This document shows, one piece after another, positions 30,452 through 36,062 of a stretch of DNA of 64,000 bases. The stretch lies in NCBI RefSeq assembly GCF_007752535.1, contig NZ_CP036426.1, positions 7,688,001-7,752,000 on the forward strand, given 5' to 3'. The notes under the pieces were generated by a model, which was given only the letters and a program-made list of their open reading frames with translations, did not search any database and was not told the DNA's origin. Position 1 is the stretch's first letter. The number at the start of each line of letters is the position of its first letter. The position numbers were made by a program, and so were the translations under genes. The stretch comes from Tautonia plasticadhaerens. GTDB lineage: Bacteria; Planctomycetota; Planctomycetia; Isosphaerales; Isosphaeraceae.

Positions 30452-32383
30452 ATGCGACTGAGCGTCCGCACCCTGGCCGAACTGATCGCCCTGGCGGCGA
30501 TCGCCGTCGGCCTCTGGGACCTGCACCGGTCCTCCCGCCCCCCCGAGCCGCTGTTGAGGGCCCTGAAGCACGGCGACGAGGGCGAGAAGGTCGCCGCCCT
30601 GCGCGGCCTGAGCCTGCTGGGGGACGACGGCCCCCCGGTCGTGCCCGAGTTGATCGCCGCCGCCCGGGACGACCCCTCGCCCGCCGTCCGTCGCGGGGCC
30701 ATCTTCGCGATGATGCGGATCGCCTTGGTCGAGCCCCCCGACGAGCATCCCATCGACGAGGCCCTCGCCGTCCCTCCGCCGCCCACCCCGCCGGGGCAGC
30801 CGCCGGCCCCCCCTCCCCGGCCTCCCCAATCGGCGAAGATGCTCAGACCCCGGGCCGGGGAGGTGGCCACGGTCATCGCCGACCGGATGCGCACCGACCC
30901 CGATCCCTCCGTCCGCGCCTTCGCCATCCGGGCGCTCCGCAAGATCCTCAGCACGGCGATCCAGGAGCGATGGTCCGCGAGGGCCGCCCTCAAGCCGGGC
31001 CAGCCCCCTCCGCAGTTCGAAGGGACCGGCCCCTGGGTCGAGTCCACCTTCCGGGCCATCGCCGACCGCGCGGCAGAGGACCCCGATCCCGAGGTCGTCT
31101 CCCAGGCGATTGGCGCCCTCACCTCGTCCCGGCCCGTGCAGGAGCTGTTGACGGACCCCGGCCGGGCCGAGCTGTACCTCCGGCTGATCGGCGTGGATTC
31201 GGAGGACCCGGCCCTGCCCCCGCACCTGGAGGTCCTCCTGCTCAGCCGCCTGGTCCGGCTGGTCTACCCGGGCGAGGAGGCCTTCGATCCCCTGATCGAT
31301 CGGCTCGTCCGACGCGTGGCCGATCCCCCGACCGCCGGCCTCCCCGAGCTGACCTGGGAACGCGACCTGATCGAGACCGTCCGGGTCGCTTACGCGAGTC
31401 TGCTCTGGCAGGTCGCGCCCTCGCCGGAGCTGTTCGACGAACACCCCGAGGTCGGACGGGTACTGATCGACCTGATCGCCGACTCCGAGCGATACGGCCA
31501 TTCCTCCGGGGCGAACAATCAGTTCGAGGAATGGGTGAGGCGTCCCACGGCCGACCGGCTTCGGGTCGACCTCTACGGCGGATCGCGCGGCGCCTCCTGG
31601 GAGGGTGGCGGAATGAGCCTGCCGGACCTCAGAGACGCCGCCCTGTCGGCGTTCGCTCGGGACGCGAGGTTCCTCGACGTACTCTGGCCTCGGATGGACC
31701 GCCATTCCCGGCTGGGCTGGCTCGGCGGGCACTGGTCATTCGGGCCCTCCGGAGAGTGGTCCGGCCTGGCCCCCCTGCTCGACGCCCCCGAGGTCCGCGC
31801 CGAACTCCCCCCCGACGAAGCCGAGGCCCTCCTCTCCCGCCTCCTCGACGAGCCCGGCCCGACCCCCGAGGAGGACGGCGAACAGTCCCTCCGGCCGACG
31901 ATCCGGGAGATCGAGGACGAACGCCAGGGCCCGGGCCGGGGACGGGCACAGCTCCAGGCGCAGGGCCGGGACGGGCCCGCCTTCGACGCCACCCCGCTGG
32001 AGGCCGCCCGCCTGCGCCGGTCGATCCGCAACCTGGCGATCCTCGCCTACTTCGCCAGGGCCACCGATCCCGGCTCCGATGCCGTCTCCCGGCTGGTCGA
32101 CCGGCTCGTCCCGCTACTCGGCGCGGCCGACGTGCCGACGCGGACCCGGGCCGCGACGCTGCTCGGCTCGCTCGGCCCCGCCGCCTCCCCGGCCCGCCCG
32201 GCGCTGGAGTTGATGGCCATGGGTGACCCCGACGAGTCGTCCCGGGAGGCGGCCCGATACGCCCTCGACCAGCTCGACCCGGCTCCCGAGGGCGACCCGC
32301 CGCCGGACGTCCCCCGGCCTCCCACCTTCCCGACCTCGTCCGAGCCCGAGCCCGACCCGAGCCCCCCGGAACCCCTCCCATGA
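30452..32383 (+). CDS. Membrane-anchored HEAT-repeat protein (paralogue 1)
   Basis: 643 aa. ATG at 30452; N-terminal hydrophobic segment (LAELIALAAIAVGLWDL, about 8-24) is followed by repeated pairs of helices. Recognisable HEAT-like units include GEKVAALRGLSLLGDDGPPVVPEL, PSPAVRRGAIFAMMRI, PDPSVRAFAIRALRKI, PDPEVVSQAIGALTS, and a final PTRTRAATLLGSLGPAASPARP. Pro-rich linkers break the array near residues 105-130, and a charged insert lies near 480. HEAT solenoids mediate protein-protein contact and have no enzyme chemistry. It overlaps the next gene by four bases (ATGA) and the two share architecture and order of helices, so they are a tandem duplication. Partner unknown. Confidence 0.8.
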   Translation: MRLSVRTLAELIALAAIAVGLWDLHRSSRPPEPLLRALKHGDEGEKVAALRGLSLLGDDGPPVVPELIAAARDDPSPAVRRGAIFAMMRIALVEPPDEHPIDEALAVPPPPTPPGQPPAPPPRPPQSAKMLRPRAGEVATVIADRMRTDPDPSVRAFAIRALRKILSTAIQERWSARAALKPGQPPPQFEGTGPWVESTFRAIADRAAEDPDPEVVSQAIGALTSSRPVQELLTDPGRAELYLRLIGVDSEDPALPPHLEVLLLSRLVRLVYPGEEAFDPLIDRLVRRVADPPTAGLPELTWERDLIETVRVAYASLLWQVAPSPELFDEHPEVGRVLIDLIADSERYGHSSGANNQFEEWVRRPTADRLRVDLYGGSRGASWEGGGMSLPDLRDAALSAFARDARFLDVLWPRMDRHSRLGWLGGHWSFGPSGEWSGLAPLLDAPEVRAELPPDEAEALLSRLLDEPGPTPEEDGEQSLRPTIREIEDERQGPGRGRAQLQAQGRDGPAFDATPLEAARLRRSIRNLAILAYFARATDPGSDAVSRLVDRLVPLLGAADVPTRTRAATLLGSLGPAASPARPALELMAMGDPDESSREAARYALDQLDPAPEGDPPPDVPRPPTFPTSSEPEPDPSPPEPLP

Positions 32384-34011
32384 ACCCCGCCCCCTCGCCG
32401 GCCGGGCCCCCGGTCCGCCGCCGACGCGGCTGGCTCAGGCCCGGCCCCCGGGCCCTGGTCGAGCTGCTGGCGCTGGTCCTGGCCGTCCTCGGCTACGAGG
32501 CACTCCGACACCGGGGGGAGTTCCCCCGGCCGACCGCCCGGGCCCTCCGAAGCGGCAACGCCGCCGACCGGGCCGACGCCCTCCGCGCCCTCAGCCGGTT
32601 CGGCACCGCCGGGGTCGAGGCGATCCCGGCCCTCGCGACGACCCTCCGAAACGACCCCGACCCCGCCCTCCGCCGGGGAGCCGCCTTCGCCCTCGCCGCG
32701 GTCGCCGGCGGCGACGGCCCCCCCGAGCCGTTCCCGATCGAATTGCTGCTCTACGGCTCGGAGCACGTCATCACCACCCCGGCCGACGCCGTACGCCCCC
32801 CCAACCCGCCCCACCCCCGCGCCTCCGATGCCGCCTCGGTCCTCGTCGACGCGCTCCGAGCGGACCCCGACCCGACCGTACGCCTGGAGACGATCCGGTC
32901 CCTGACCCTGCTGCTCCGATCCGCCACCGGCACTCGCCCCCCGCTCCGGGGCGGCTACCCTCTGGGCCCGAACCCCGATCCGCCCCCCGAGCCTCGACCC
33001 GCCCCCGAGATCCCCCGCTGGGCCTTCGACGCCGCCCGGGCCCTGGCGGACCTGGCCGTCCCCGACGGCGAGCCCGACGCGGCTTCCCAGGCCGCCCTCG
33101 GCTGGGTTTTCATGGACCCCGCCTCCCCGGTGTTACTCGACGACGCCTCACGCTTCGCCCCCCTTCTCTCCTCCGCGGCTCGGGCCATCCGAGACGGCCA
33201 GCCGGACGCGCTGGACCGCATGATCGTGATGGCCGCCGCCACCGAAGCCCGCGGTTCGGCGCACCGATCCGACGCCTTCTTCGCCCTGATCCTGCCGGCC
33301 ATGGCCGGTCCCCCTCCCGAGGCCTACGGCGCGGTCCCGCTCGAGGCCCTCGCTCACCCCTTCTGGCTCGCCCTGCCCTCGGCCCGGCGGCTACGGGAGC
33401 ATCCCGAGGCCGTCGACGCCTTCCTCCGTCTCCTGGTGATGGATCCGGGGTCCAATCCCTACACGCAGGGGGTGGCGACCGATCGTCCAGACCTCTCGGA
33501 GCGACTCCAGCGGTTCATCCACCGCGAGGCAGAGACCGACGGCTTGCCCGGGGCGCACCCGGCACCGATCGCCCTGGCCGCCATCCGGGAGGACCCGGCC
33601 ATCCTCGACATCCTCGGCCCCCGGGCTCAGGAGCCTCACTGGTCCGCGATCCTCATCGGGGTCGTCGACCAACAGGGCTGGGACGCCTTCGCCAAACTCC
33701 TCGACGACCCCGAGCCCCGCACCGGACTCTCGCCCGACCGGGCGGTGGACGCCGCCAATTACCTCCTCGACGCCGTCGCCGAGCTGCCCGACCAGCTGGC
33801 CTATCCCCGACGATTGGGGCTCGCCCTCGCCTCCTACTTCCTCAAGGCCGTCCCCCCCGATTCCCCGAGCATCGCCCGCCATGCCGAGCTGCTCGACGCG
33901 CTCTCGGACGCATCCGAGCCCGAGCCGAATGCTAACCCCGTGATCTTCCCCGAGGGCACCATCAACGGAGTCTCCGCCTCCGAACCCGCCCCCGGCAACT
34001 CACCCCGGTGA
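32380..34011 (+). CDS. Membrane-anchored HEAT-repeat protein (paralogue 2)
   Basis: 543 aa, start 32380 overlapping the previous stop, so translation is probably coupled. Like its neighbour it has a basic N-terminus, a hydrophobic segment (ALVELLALVLAVLGYEAL, about 28-45), and HEAT-like helical pairs in the same order (NAADRADALRALSRFGTAG, VEAIPALATTLRNDPDPALR, RRGAAFALAAVAGGD, ADPDPTVRLETIRSLTLL). The shared FPRPTARALRSGN / PPEPLLRALKHGD start of the array marks the relationship. The C-terminal half is less regular and ends in a Glu/Pro-rich tail. Function unknown; both copies are probably periplasmic or cytoplasmic scaffolds tethered to the membrane. Confidence 0.8.
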   Translation: MNPAPSPAGPPVRRRRGWLRPGPRALVELLALVLAVLGYEALRHRGEFPRPTARALRSGNAADRADALRALSRFGTAGVEAIPALATTLRNDPDPALRRGAAFALAAVAGGDGPPEPFPIELLLYGSEHVITTPADAVRPPNPPHPRASDAASVLVDALRADPDPTVRLETIRSLTLLLRSATGTRPPLRGGYPLGPNPDPPPEPRPAPEIPRWAFDAARALADLAVPDGEPDAASQAALGWVFMDPASPVLLDDASRFAPLLSSAARAIRDGQPDALDRMIVMAAATEARGSAHRSDAFFALILPAMAGPPPEAYGAVPLEALAHPFWLALPSARRLREHPEAVDAFLRLLVMDPGSNPYTQGVATDRPDLSERLQRFIHREAETDGLPGAHPAPIALAAIREDPAILDILGPRAQEPHWSAILIGVVDQQGWDAFAKLLDDPEPRTGLSPDRAVDAANYLLDAVAELPDQLAYPRRLGLALASYFLKAVPPDSPSIARHAELLDALSDASEPEPNANPVIFPEGTINGVSASEPAPGNSPR

Positions 34012-34145
34012 GGGCCAGGACCGGCCCGGTCGGCCTCGGACGGGGACGGGGCCCAGATCGTCGGGAAAAACCGGGAACAATCGCGGCCCCTCGTGGCATT
34101 ACTCGTGACGATCGACGACCCTGACCGTCACGGAGGACGCCCCTC

Positions 34146-36062
34146 GTGCCGACCCGCCGCACCCCCTCGACCGCCTCGAACGCGCTGCGGACCCTGTTCA
34201 ACCTCGGGGTGATCGGCAACCTGACCGACGGTCAGCTCCTGGAACGCTTCGCCACCCGGGACGGCGAGGCGGCCGAGCTGGCCTTCGCGGCGATCGTCGA
34301 GCGACACGGCCCGATGGTCCTCCGCGCCTGCCGATCGGTCCTCGCCGACCCCCACGACGCGCAGGACGCCTTCCAGGCCACCTTCCTCGTCCTCGCCCGG
34401 CGGGCCGAGGCCCTCTGGGTCCGGGACTCGATCGGCCCCTGGTTGTTCTCCGTCGCCCTCCGGGTCTCCCGGCACTCCCGGGCCGCCGACGCCCGCCGCC
34501 GGCGTCACGAGCGGCGATCGGCCGAGCATTTTTCCCGATCGGTGGTCGACGACCCGAGCGTCGAGCCCGACCCCTCGGAATCCCCCCTGCTCGCCGAGCT
34601 GGACCGCCTGCCTGCTCGGTTCCGGGATCCGGTCGTCCTCTGCGACCTCCAGGGCCGCTCCTACGACCAGGCGGCCCGGCACCTCGGCCTGCCCGTCGGC
34701 ACGCTCAAGAGCCGGCTCGCCCGGGGCCGGTCCCGGCTCCGAGACCGGCTCCGACGCCTCGGGCTCTCCCCGGGCTTCGCCGCGACGGGCGTCCGCCTGC
34801 CCTCCGCGCTGATCGACTCCACCTCGTCCGCCGCCATGCGAGCCGCGTCGGGCGTGGCGACGGCCGGGACGGTCCCGGCCTCGGTGATCCTGCTCGCCTC
34901 CGGAGCGCTGTGGATGATGCGCCTCGCTTCCTTCGCCCGATGGACCGCCGCCGCCCTCGCGGTTTCGCTCACCGGCGTCGGCCTCGCCGCCGCCGCCGCC
35001 CTGTTCCCCTCCCAGGAGCCGCCGCCCCCGGCCCCGGCGTCGGCCTCGGCGCCGAAGGCCGCCCCGGCGGTCGCACCGCCCGAAGCCGACCCGGGGCCGG
35101 TCATCTCCTTCGACGTGCGGTTCATCGAGGTCCCCGGCCTCATGGCCAGGTCGATGGGGATCGATTTCGACTTCGGCTCCGAGCCCCCGATGGGCCTCTC
35201 CTTCCTCTCCGACCTGGAGGCGAGGCTGTTCGCCGACGCCCTGACGGCGATCCCGGACGTGACGATCGTCCAGGCCCCCCGGGTCACGACCTATCCCGGC
35301 GCGGCCGCGACCGTCGCCCATTCCCGGGCCGGGGAGGGCACGGATCTGCCCCTCCCCGGCCGATCAGTGCCCGAGCCCCTCGAACTCGGCATCCCTCGGG
35401 CCGAGCCGGACCCGGTCAAGGCCGCCGAACCGATCCCGGAGGGGATCGTCGCCACGCTCACGGGCAGGCCGTCGGACGACGGCAGGTCCCTGACGATCGA
35501 CCTCGACATCCGGGACGTCCACGTCGTCGAGCGGCACGAGCTGGTGTTCTACGCCAACAACGGGAAATACATCGGGGACTTCCCCGAGGTCGTCCGCACC
35601 CGATTCGATCAGCGGGTGACGATCCCCGACCGTGCCGACTCGGCCCTGCTCGTCAGTCTTGGCCTCCGAAGGACGGCCACCATGGGCCGCTCCTCGATCT
35701 CCGACCATTATGTCCTGATCCGAGCCCGGACCATCCCCCTGGACCCACCACTGGCGATACCGGCCGACTCGCCCAAGCCCCGGCCGGCCCCGGCCGGCAT
35801 GACCCGGCCGCTCGGGAGCCCCCACGACACGATCGAGCCGCTGCCGGCCCCGACCGAGTCGCTCAAGCCGCTGCCGGCCCCGAGCGACTCGCTCAAGCGG
35901 CTGCCGATCTGGGGCGGGATGACCCGGCCGTCCGGGAGCCCGGTCGACACATTGATTCCCCTCCCGGCCCCGGTCGACGCGAAGGACGGGCCGCCGTTGA
36001 GCTGGTCGCTCGACCCTCGAAGCCGCCGGGGCCTCCCGTCAGGCCCCGGCATCGGCCAGTGA
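34146..36062 (+). CDS. ECF sigma factor fused to a membrane segment and secretin-like domain
   Basis: 638 aa, GTG start at 34146 with CGGAGGAC about 10 bases upstream. Residues 1-220 are a full ECF sigma factor: LLERFATRDGEAAELAFAAI, LRACRSVLADPHDAQDAFQA (region 2), then LDRLPARFRDPVVLCDLQG with the region-4 helix-turn-helix YDQAARHLGLPVGTLKSRLA. One or two transmembrane segments follow (about 245-290: VILLASGALWMMR, AAALAVSLTGVGLAAAAAL). Residues 318-480 resemble the secretin/pilus-like unit ISFDVRFIEVPGLMARSMG through PDVTIVQAPRVTTYPGAAAT, then a beta-rich RSLTIDLDIRDVHVVER. The tail has near-repeats LPAPTESLKPLPAPSDS. The arrangement puts the sensor outside and the sigma factor inside; release by proteolysis would be a plausible activation (inference). 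It overlaps the convergent aminotransferase by 24 bases. Confidence 0.85.
   Translation: MPTRRTPSTASNALRTLFNLGVIGNLTDGQLLERFATRDGEAAELAFAAIVERHGPMVLRACRSVLADPHDAQDAFQATFLVLARRAEALWVRDSIGPWLFSVALRVSRHSRAADARRRRHERRSAEHFSRSVVDDPSVEPDPSESPLLAELDRLPARFRDPVVLCDLQGRSYDQAARHLGLPVGTLKSRLARGRSRLRDRLRRLGLSPGFAATGVRLPSALIDSTSSAAMRAASGVATAGTVPASVILLASGALWMMRLASFARWTAAALAVSLTGVGLAAAAALFPSQEPPPPAPASASAPKAAPAVAPPEADPGPVISFDVRFIEVPGLMARSMGIDFDFGSEPPMGLSFLSDLEARLFADALTAIPDVTIVQAPRVTTYPGAAATVAHSRAGEGTDLPLPGRSVPEPLELGIPRAEPDPVKAAEPIPEGIVATLTGRPSDDGRSLTIDLDIRDVHVVERHELVFYANNGKYIGDFPEVVRTRFDQRVTIPDRADSALLVSLGLRRTATMGRSSISDHYVLIRARTIPLDPPLAIPADSPKPRPAPAGMTRPLGSPHDTIEPLPAPTESLKPLPAPSDSLKRLPIWGGMTRPSGSPVDTLIPLPAPVDAKDGPPLSWSLDPRSRRGLPSGPGIGQ

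Follow-up and report, generated by a model that had tools for sequence, protein, structure and literature searches.

A predicted ECF sigma factor of Tautonia plasticadhaerens fused to a membrane segment and a secretin-like domain, a candidate one-protein receptor

The 64,000-nucleotide stretch of the Tautonia plasticadhaerens genome analysed here (the window) contains an open reading frame (34146-36062, +) that encodes, from a GTG start, a protein of 638 aa. In this protein an ECF sigma factor is followed by a membrane segment, a linker, a secretin-like domain and a Pro-rich tail (Table 1). It seems that the product would be a receptor in a single protein, in which a secretin-like domain in the periplasm is the input and the sigma factor the output, a reading to which we assign a probability of about 0.57. 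In the alignment with the ortholog of Aquisphaera insulae, the GTG start coincides with the ATG of that gene. Part of the Pro-rich tail is coded by 30-bp tandem repeats at 35760-35906. Directly upstream lie the genes of two HEAT-repeat proteins, 30452-32383 and 32380-34011 (+), which overlap by four bases and have no counterpart on the A. insulae contig. Pfam identified no receptor among the four neighbours scanned, which are the two HEAT proteins, ClpX and an aminotransferase.

Table 1. Features of the sigma fusion gene in the window, and the M56 proteins with a secretin-like domain.
Feature	Position	Strand	Basis
Whole gene: sigma factor / membrane segment / linker / secretin-like domain / Pro-rich tail	34146..36062	+	ORF, Pfam, ortholog alignment
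GGAGGA, likely ribosome-binding site, 8 bases upstream of GTG	34132..34137	+	By eye in sequence
Sigma-70 region 2, residues 50-112, with conserved Cys62	34293..34481	+	Pfam PF04542, E 7.9e-8
Sigma-70 region 4, residues 148-198, with conserved Cys166	34587..34739	+	Pfam PF08281, E 4.6e-12
Partly conserved segment preceding main membrane helix, residues 219-258	34800..34919	+	Columns common to half or more of 50 sigma-fusion rows
Predicted membrane helix, residues 269-287	34950..35006	+	Hydropathy 2.03
Pro/Ala-rich linker, residues 288-317	35007..35096	+	Sequence
Secretin-like domain, about residues 318-534	35097..35747	+	BLASTP, profile-profile comparison, AlphaFold fold
Pro-rich tail, no counterpart in ortholog	35766..36059	+	Ortholog alignment, repeat reading
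M56 carriers: L134, L137, L138, L139, L140, L145, L151, L152, L153, L155, L157			C-terminal secretin-like domain

The N-terminal part shows matches to PF04542 and PF08281, both above the Pfam cut-offs, and the general ECF model of NCBIfam, TIGR02937, scores 56.3 bits against a cut-off of 42.9. No other sigma-70 region (1 or 3) was found by Pfam at E <= 1. The protein is an ECF sigma factor in having regions 2 and 4 and neither region 1 nor region 3, and the full ECF sigma factor seen in an earlier, sequence-only reading of this DNA is borne out. The same reading spoke of "membrane segment(s)", which is the right wording, as a strong hydrophobic segment at residues 269-287 (mean hydropathy 2.03) is accompanied by a weaker one at 237-255 (1.69). 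Pfam gave no credible domain in the C-terminal part and no WD40 match at E <= 1.

A genome search with the whole protein matched 39 places, the window gene and a secretin included, of which 30 were read, the window's among them. Regions 2 and 4 are listed by Pfam in all 30 sigma fusions of this genome (the region-2 match of L010 is just below the cut-off), and 29 of them have a hydrophobic segment at residues 225-345. The sigma factor with its membrane part is ordinary here: it has many relatives in this genome, and most of the 30 members read have other C-terminal parts. Cys62 is kept in 28/30 rows of these fusions and in 17/20 rows from other genomes, and Cys166 in 29/30 and 20/20, respectively. 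Singulisphaera acidiphila is an isosphaeral planctomycete. The model member listed for ECF57 comes from this species, and a pair of conserved cysteines, of which sigma2 and sigma4 hold one apiece, serves as the hallmark of the group (PMC8999054). The conservation of Cys62 and Cys166 fits this hallmark, and it is therefore likely, judging by sequence, that the family belongs to ECF57.

According to Pfam, the C-terminal parts of the paralogs include HlyD-type domains (L002, L004), carboxypeptidase-regulatory-like repeats (L009, L010, L014, L016, L017, L024, L029, L030), redoxin or thioredoxin (L008, L014, L016 and, weakly, L017), polysaccharide export/SLBB domains (L019) and CBM9 (L020), and several contain no named Pfam domain. 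In L019 (L072:1786-5844, -) the ECF sigma factor is fused to polysaccharide-export (Wza-like) and SLBB domains, and L085, from another genome, resembles this fusion by eye. The C-terminal parts of L002 and L004 (L065) are like HlyD and membrane fusion proteins; L006 joins this group by similarity, and L081 and L087 by eye. The genes of L024, L029 and L030 are clustered on one strand at G000:C2:148532-155643, on a contig of 278 kb that is perhaps a plasmid. In L012:1471-3375 (+) the C-terminal half turns abruptly odd in composition past a TPR-like part, perhaps through a frameshift. A plasmid search gave one match, to the sigma part alone.

Three places in the genome, none of them the window gene, pass the Pfam Secretin cut-off; their open frames measure 691, 1113 and 1431 aa. 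PF00263 has no match in the window domain at E <= 1. The match in the 1113-residue frame (G000:C6:11925-12398) is strong and lies on a separate small contig. A genome search with the window domain matches just one of the three secretins, the 1431-aa frame (L077; 1386 aa from the first start; Pfam Secretin E 7.1e-26). Residues 314-545 of the fusion protein match it by BLASTP with 45.4 bits and 50% identity across 42 residues, and a second segment of the domain matches with 28.9 bits; none of 1000 shuffled sequences reached 45 bits, the maximum being 33.5. A profile of the window domain and five relatives (A2) was compared by hhalign with a profile of 18 long family secretins (A3), which gave a probability of 97.1 and an E of 4.9e-11, the latter being the value for a single comparison. 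PF00263 matches one of the six A2 rows, at 8e-4. Among 198 genomes of the class, A2 has matches in 56 at E <= 1e-8, long secretins included. The PDB search with A2 yielded one chance-level match to a ribosomal protein, and that with A6 yielded no match.

The AlphaFold model of the domain, built from two sequences, has a pLDDT of 68 and a pTM of 0.67, and the best of the five models stands far apart from the others (68.0 against 52.1 and less). Foldseek placed secretins at ranks 1-30, and VIA at ranks 1-28 with Z of 7.4-9.4, the next row having 5.2; a few of the titles name the secretion system alone. A disordered C-terminal part was rejected in view of the model and these secretin matches. Taken by remote homology and predicted fold, the C-terminal domain is secretin-like, and Pfam alone misses it. 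The 18 long family secretins possess, near the C-terminus, an invariant or near-invariant segment P-x-L-S-K-x-P-x-x-x-R-L-F-R-N, which on reading the sequence is absent from the window domain. For this reason the domain is not called a pore: given the missing segment and the lack of N-domains, a working secretin pore was rejected as a reading, and the domain is probably not a pore.

The sigma factor, the helix and the secretin-like domain occur together in two of 59 genomes, those of the window and of A. insulae JC669, both Isosphaeraceae; the search of the 59 relatives used a full-length profile built from those same two sequences, at E <= 1e-90. Aligned from end to end, the two proteins show 45% identity. 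The sequence-only reading had proposed a secretin-like domain, had called such a partner unusual and had suggested a structure prediction and a search for relatives. The domain is confirmed by BLASTP with shuffles, by hhalign and by the AlphaFold, Foldseek and VIA results, provided that it is not read as a pore; the predicted secretin fold past the membrane segment leaves the proposal unrefuted, the search found one relative of the same architecture, A. insulae, and "unusual" is a fair word for so rare a combination. The same reading had proposed a one-protein signal system that would sense a secreted or outer-membrane state and release the sigma domain, which is partly supported: an input role is backed by the separate fusions to M56 proteins described below, and the sensed state and the release are putative. 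Apart from the sigma fusion, the 18-kb A. insulae contig has no gene in common with the window at E <= 1e-8, and the neighbouring genes were rejected as partners on this ground. In the tree of 50 sigma domains those of the window and of A. insulae are not sisters (2 changes), and a single origin of the two is not rejected (AU p 0.34).

STN is a short, secretin-related domain that takes part in TonB-receptor signalling. Three of the 30 C-terminal parts in this genome match the 1431-aa secretin, namely those of the window protein, L007 and L018. The window domain aligns to secretin residues 1163-1204 and, in addition, 1031-1054, L007 to 938-1026 (E 5e-15) and L018 to 772-895 (E 2.5e-6), and the three modules are consecutive and non-overlapping in the secretin. 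The STN domain of L018 is nearer to stand-alone proteins of the genome (61-63%) than to the secretin (32%), which weakens its interpretation as a piece of the genome's secretin. The STN query has matches in 45/45 family genomes, and a sigma sequence is present at 4/30 STN loci, a count of presence at the locus and not in each case of the same frame.

The N-domain of the L007 type was listed at 72 places in the 45 family genomes, and 12 of the 20 places examined are sigma fusions, in 12 genomes. At least 12 of the 45 family genomes thus encode a sigma factor of this kind with a secretin N-domain, and Pfam recognises one of six rows weakly as Secretin_N. One of these fusions in another genome, L168, also seems, by reading, to carry an STN domain. 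On the sigma tree the 12 N-domain fusion rows need 5 changes, and their placement in one clade is rejected (AU p 5e-5). The tree is weak in many forks (14/47 inner branches are starred) and the N-domain group was chosen by its domain, so that the result speaks for repeated joining or swapping and not for an exact number of events. With this reservation, it is read as indicating that secretin N-domains were repeatedly joined or swapped onto sigma factors.

Secretins act as ring oligomers. This habit makes it conceivable that the fusion protein and a cellular secretin assemble together. The sigma factor would then be a built-in reporter of secretin assembly, and the secretin would replace the TonB-dependent receptor. 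Such a mechanism is one particular case of the receptor reading. It is favoured by the homology of the domain to the 1431-aa secretin, by the two other sigma fusions that match other, consecutive modules of the same protein, and by L168, which seems to bear two such modules. The similarity, however, amounts to just 45 bits and the conserved segment is missing; there are three secretins over the Pfam cut-off, so that the partner is not obvious, and the STN domain of L018 is nearer to the stand-alone proteins. On balance we consider co-assembly a rather unlikely, if serious, version of the receptor.

A second line of evidence on the domain comes from the proteins outside the sigma family that carry it. 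Architectures were read at 70 of the 119 A2 places listed in the 198 class genomes. One of the 70 is the sigma fusion of A. insulae, and 11 are membrane proteins of M56/BlaR1 type that score above Pfam's cut-off for M56 and in which the domain lies past the last predicted membrane segment (Table 1); two of them, L140 and L153, also pass the Pfam Secretin cut-off. L111 has an M56 motif by sequence, and the M56 match of L136 is below the Pfam cut-off. L141:2227-3732 (-) has an N-terminal secretin-like segment followed by several hydrophobic segments and gives no Pfam match. By a crude ad hoc rule, a signal-peptide-like stretch precedes the domain in 51 of 55 other carriers (27/28 and 24/27). The sensor of BlaR1 is its C-terminal extracellular domain (PMC7593790). 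The position of this sensor and the same place of the secretin-like domain in the M56 proteins support an input role, and the domain may well serve as an input module, as far as the comparison of architectures goes.

The domain could also be a mere passenger that anchors or stabilises the protein and senses nothing, domain shuffling having put spare envelope modules on an expanding sigma family. The very different C-terminal parts of the 30 fusions, two of which (L026, L028) end shortly past the hydrophobic segment, would fit this explanation, as would the rarity of the exact architecture (2/59 genomes) and the Pro-rich tail, which is not conserved. It accounts less well for secretin N-domains on sigma factors of several separate branches together with a core-like domain on M56 proteins as well, which seems beyond idle shuffling. 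It is unlikely that the domain is such a passenger.

The placement of the domain in the periplasm depends on the membrane segments. The ortholog of A. insulae has a single hydrophobic segment (1.72), and the weaker stretch at 237-255 of the window protein could cross the membrane as well or form an amphipathic helix. Arg residues stand just ahead of the helix 269-287 and none is found in the 13 residues past it, a pattern that fits an N-in/C-out orientation if this helix is the sole crossing. A single crossing at 269-287 would make the secretin-like domain periplasmic, and two crossings would make it cytoplasmic. At a mean hydropathy of 1.5, residues 220-345 of the 30 fusions contain one segment in 18 cases, two in 11 (the window's included) and none in one; at 1.8 the figures for the same region and fusions are 22, 1 and 7. 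By this recount the weaker segment is common in the family, which leaves less weight for the periplasmic reading and more for a cytoplasmic one. The predicted model of the sigma and helix half is poor (pLDDT 50); it places a helix at 269-283 and is too poor to judge autoinhibition.

With two membrane crossings by the hydrophobic segments, or with none, the C-terminal domain would be cytoplasmic and would act by contacts with cytoplasmic proteins, as suggested for the ECF57 members of WD40 type. Protein interaction is the suggested mechanism for some ECF57 members (PMC8999054), and two segments are seen at the 1.5 level in the window protein, which is one of 11/30 such fusions; yet 18/30 fusions and the ortholog have one segment, the stand-alone relatives mostly look secreted by the crude rule, and in the M56 proteins the domain comes after the membrane segments. 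In Tuwongella immobilis, detergent fractions yielded ECF sigma factors, a result that agrees with membrane binding but tells no side (PMC8567305). A cytoplasmic domain is the least credible of the explanations considered and is quite improbable.

Under the receptor reading, the ECF57-like sigma factor would be cytoplasmic and tethered at the inner membrane by the helix that follows it. The secretin-derived beta domain would lie in the periplasm as the input part, a protein-binding module and not a channel. The domain would alter its state on an outside contact, the candidates being one of the three secretins or the stand-alone proteins that contain this domain. Site-1/site-2 proteolysis may then free the sigma part, or the sigma part may become active while still at the membrane. 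We infer the topology, the input role, the partner, the release mechanism and the target genes of this receptor. M50 (site-2 type) proteases are encoded in the genome, the strongest match being in a 704-residue frame, and one M50 protease lies at G000:C1:4948816-4950783; M50 proteases are found in 14/14 control genomes, and their presence here therefore proves nothing specific. Known routes of activation are proteolysis, as in IutY, and protein interaction; for some ECF57 members it is the latter that has been suggested (PMC8999054), a point against proteolytic release.

A wider hypothesis can be put forward tentatively, at odds well short of even. It is that the Isosphaeraceae possess a secretin-based surface signalling, in which STN/N0, N-domain and core modules were joined several times independently to ECF receptors and BlaR1-like proteases. 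These receptors would read the assembly or activity of the cell's secretins or of secreted secretin-like proteins, and would switch genes in response.

Membrane sigma factors with extensions are already known. What is apparently new is an extension of secretin type, together with its recurrence in M56 proteins and the repeated joining. No sigma-secretin or M56-secretin fusions were the subject of the titles and abstract openings listed in searches of open-licence PubMed Central papers, a scope that the main classification and planctomycete papers lie outside. Within that scope one paper names ECF57, and one listed paper mentions BlaR1, M56 and planctomycetes (PMC9045261). A review counts 26 ECF groups with extensions, 15 of which remain to be studied (PMC8999054). 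In the present case one extension is a recognisable part of an envelope machine, reused in two classes of membrane signalling proteins, and because it is recognisable as a secretin part there are concrete candidate partners, the secretins. If the reading is true, the outer-membrane parts that signal to sigma factors would include secretins beside the TonB-dependent receptors.

Among the known systems, ECF57 is close in that its members, like the window protein, are ECF sigma factors in which a long extension follows at the C-terminus and two cysteines are conserved. The ECF57 extension is often of WD40 type, whereas that of the window protein consists of a membrane segment and a secretin-like domain. 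IutY (ECF243) likewise unites a sigma part and an extension bound to the membrane in a single chain, and its sigma part is freed by Prc and RseP (PMC8999054). Neither a FecR nor a zinc-finger anti-sigma domain is matched by Pfam in the window extension at E <= 1, and a fused anti-sigma domain was rejected on this ground. Compared with IutY and with FecI/FecR/FecA, the window protein has a secretin core-like domain in the place of the anti-sigma factor, and no receptor is among the four neighbours scanned. BlaR1/MecR1 (M56) are also membrane signalling proteins with a C-terminal domain, which is extracellular in BlaR1 (PMC7593790), but their output is a protease acting on a repressor and that of the window protein is a sigma factor. 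With the secretins (PF00263: GspD, PilQ, InvG, pIV) the window domain has remote sequence homology and the predicted fold in common. It differs from them in being single and short, without the conserved C-terminal segment or N-domains of its own, and in being fused to a sigma factor and a helix.
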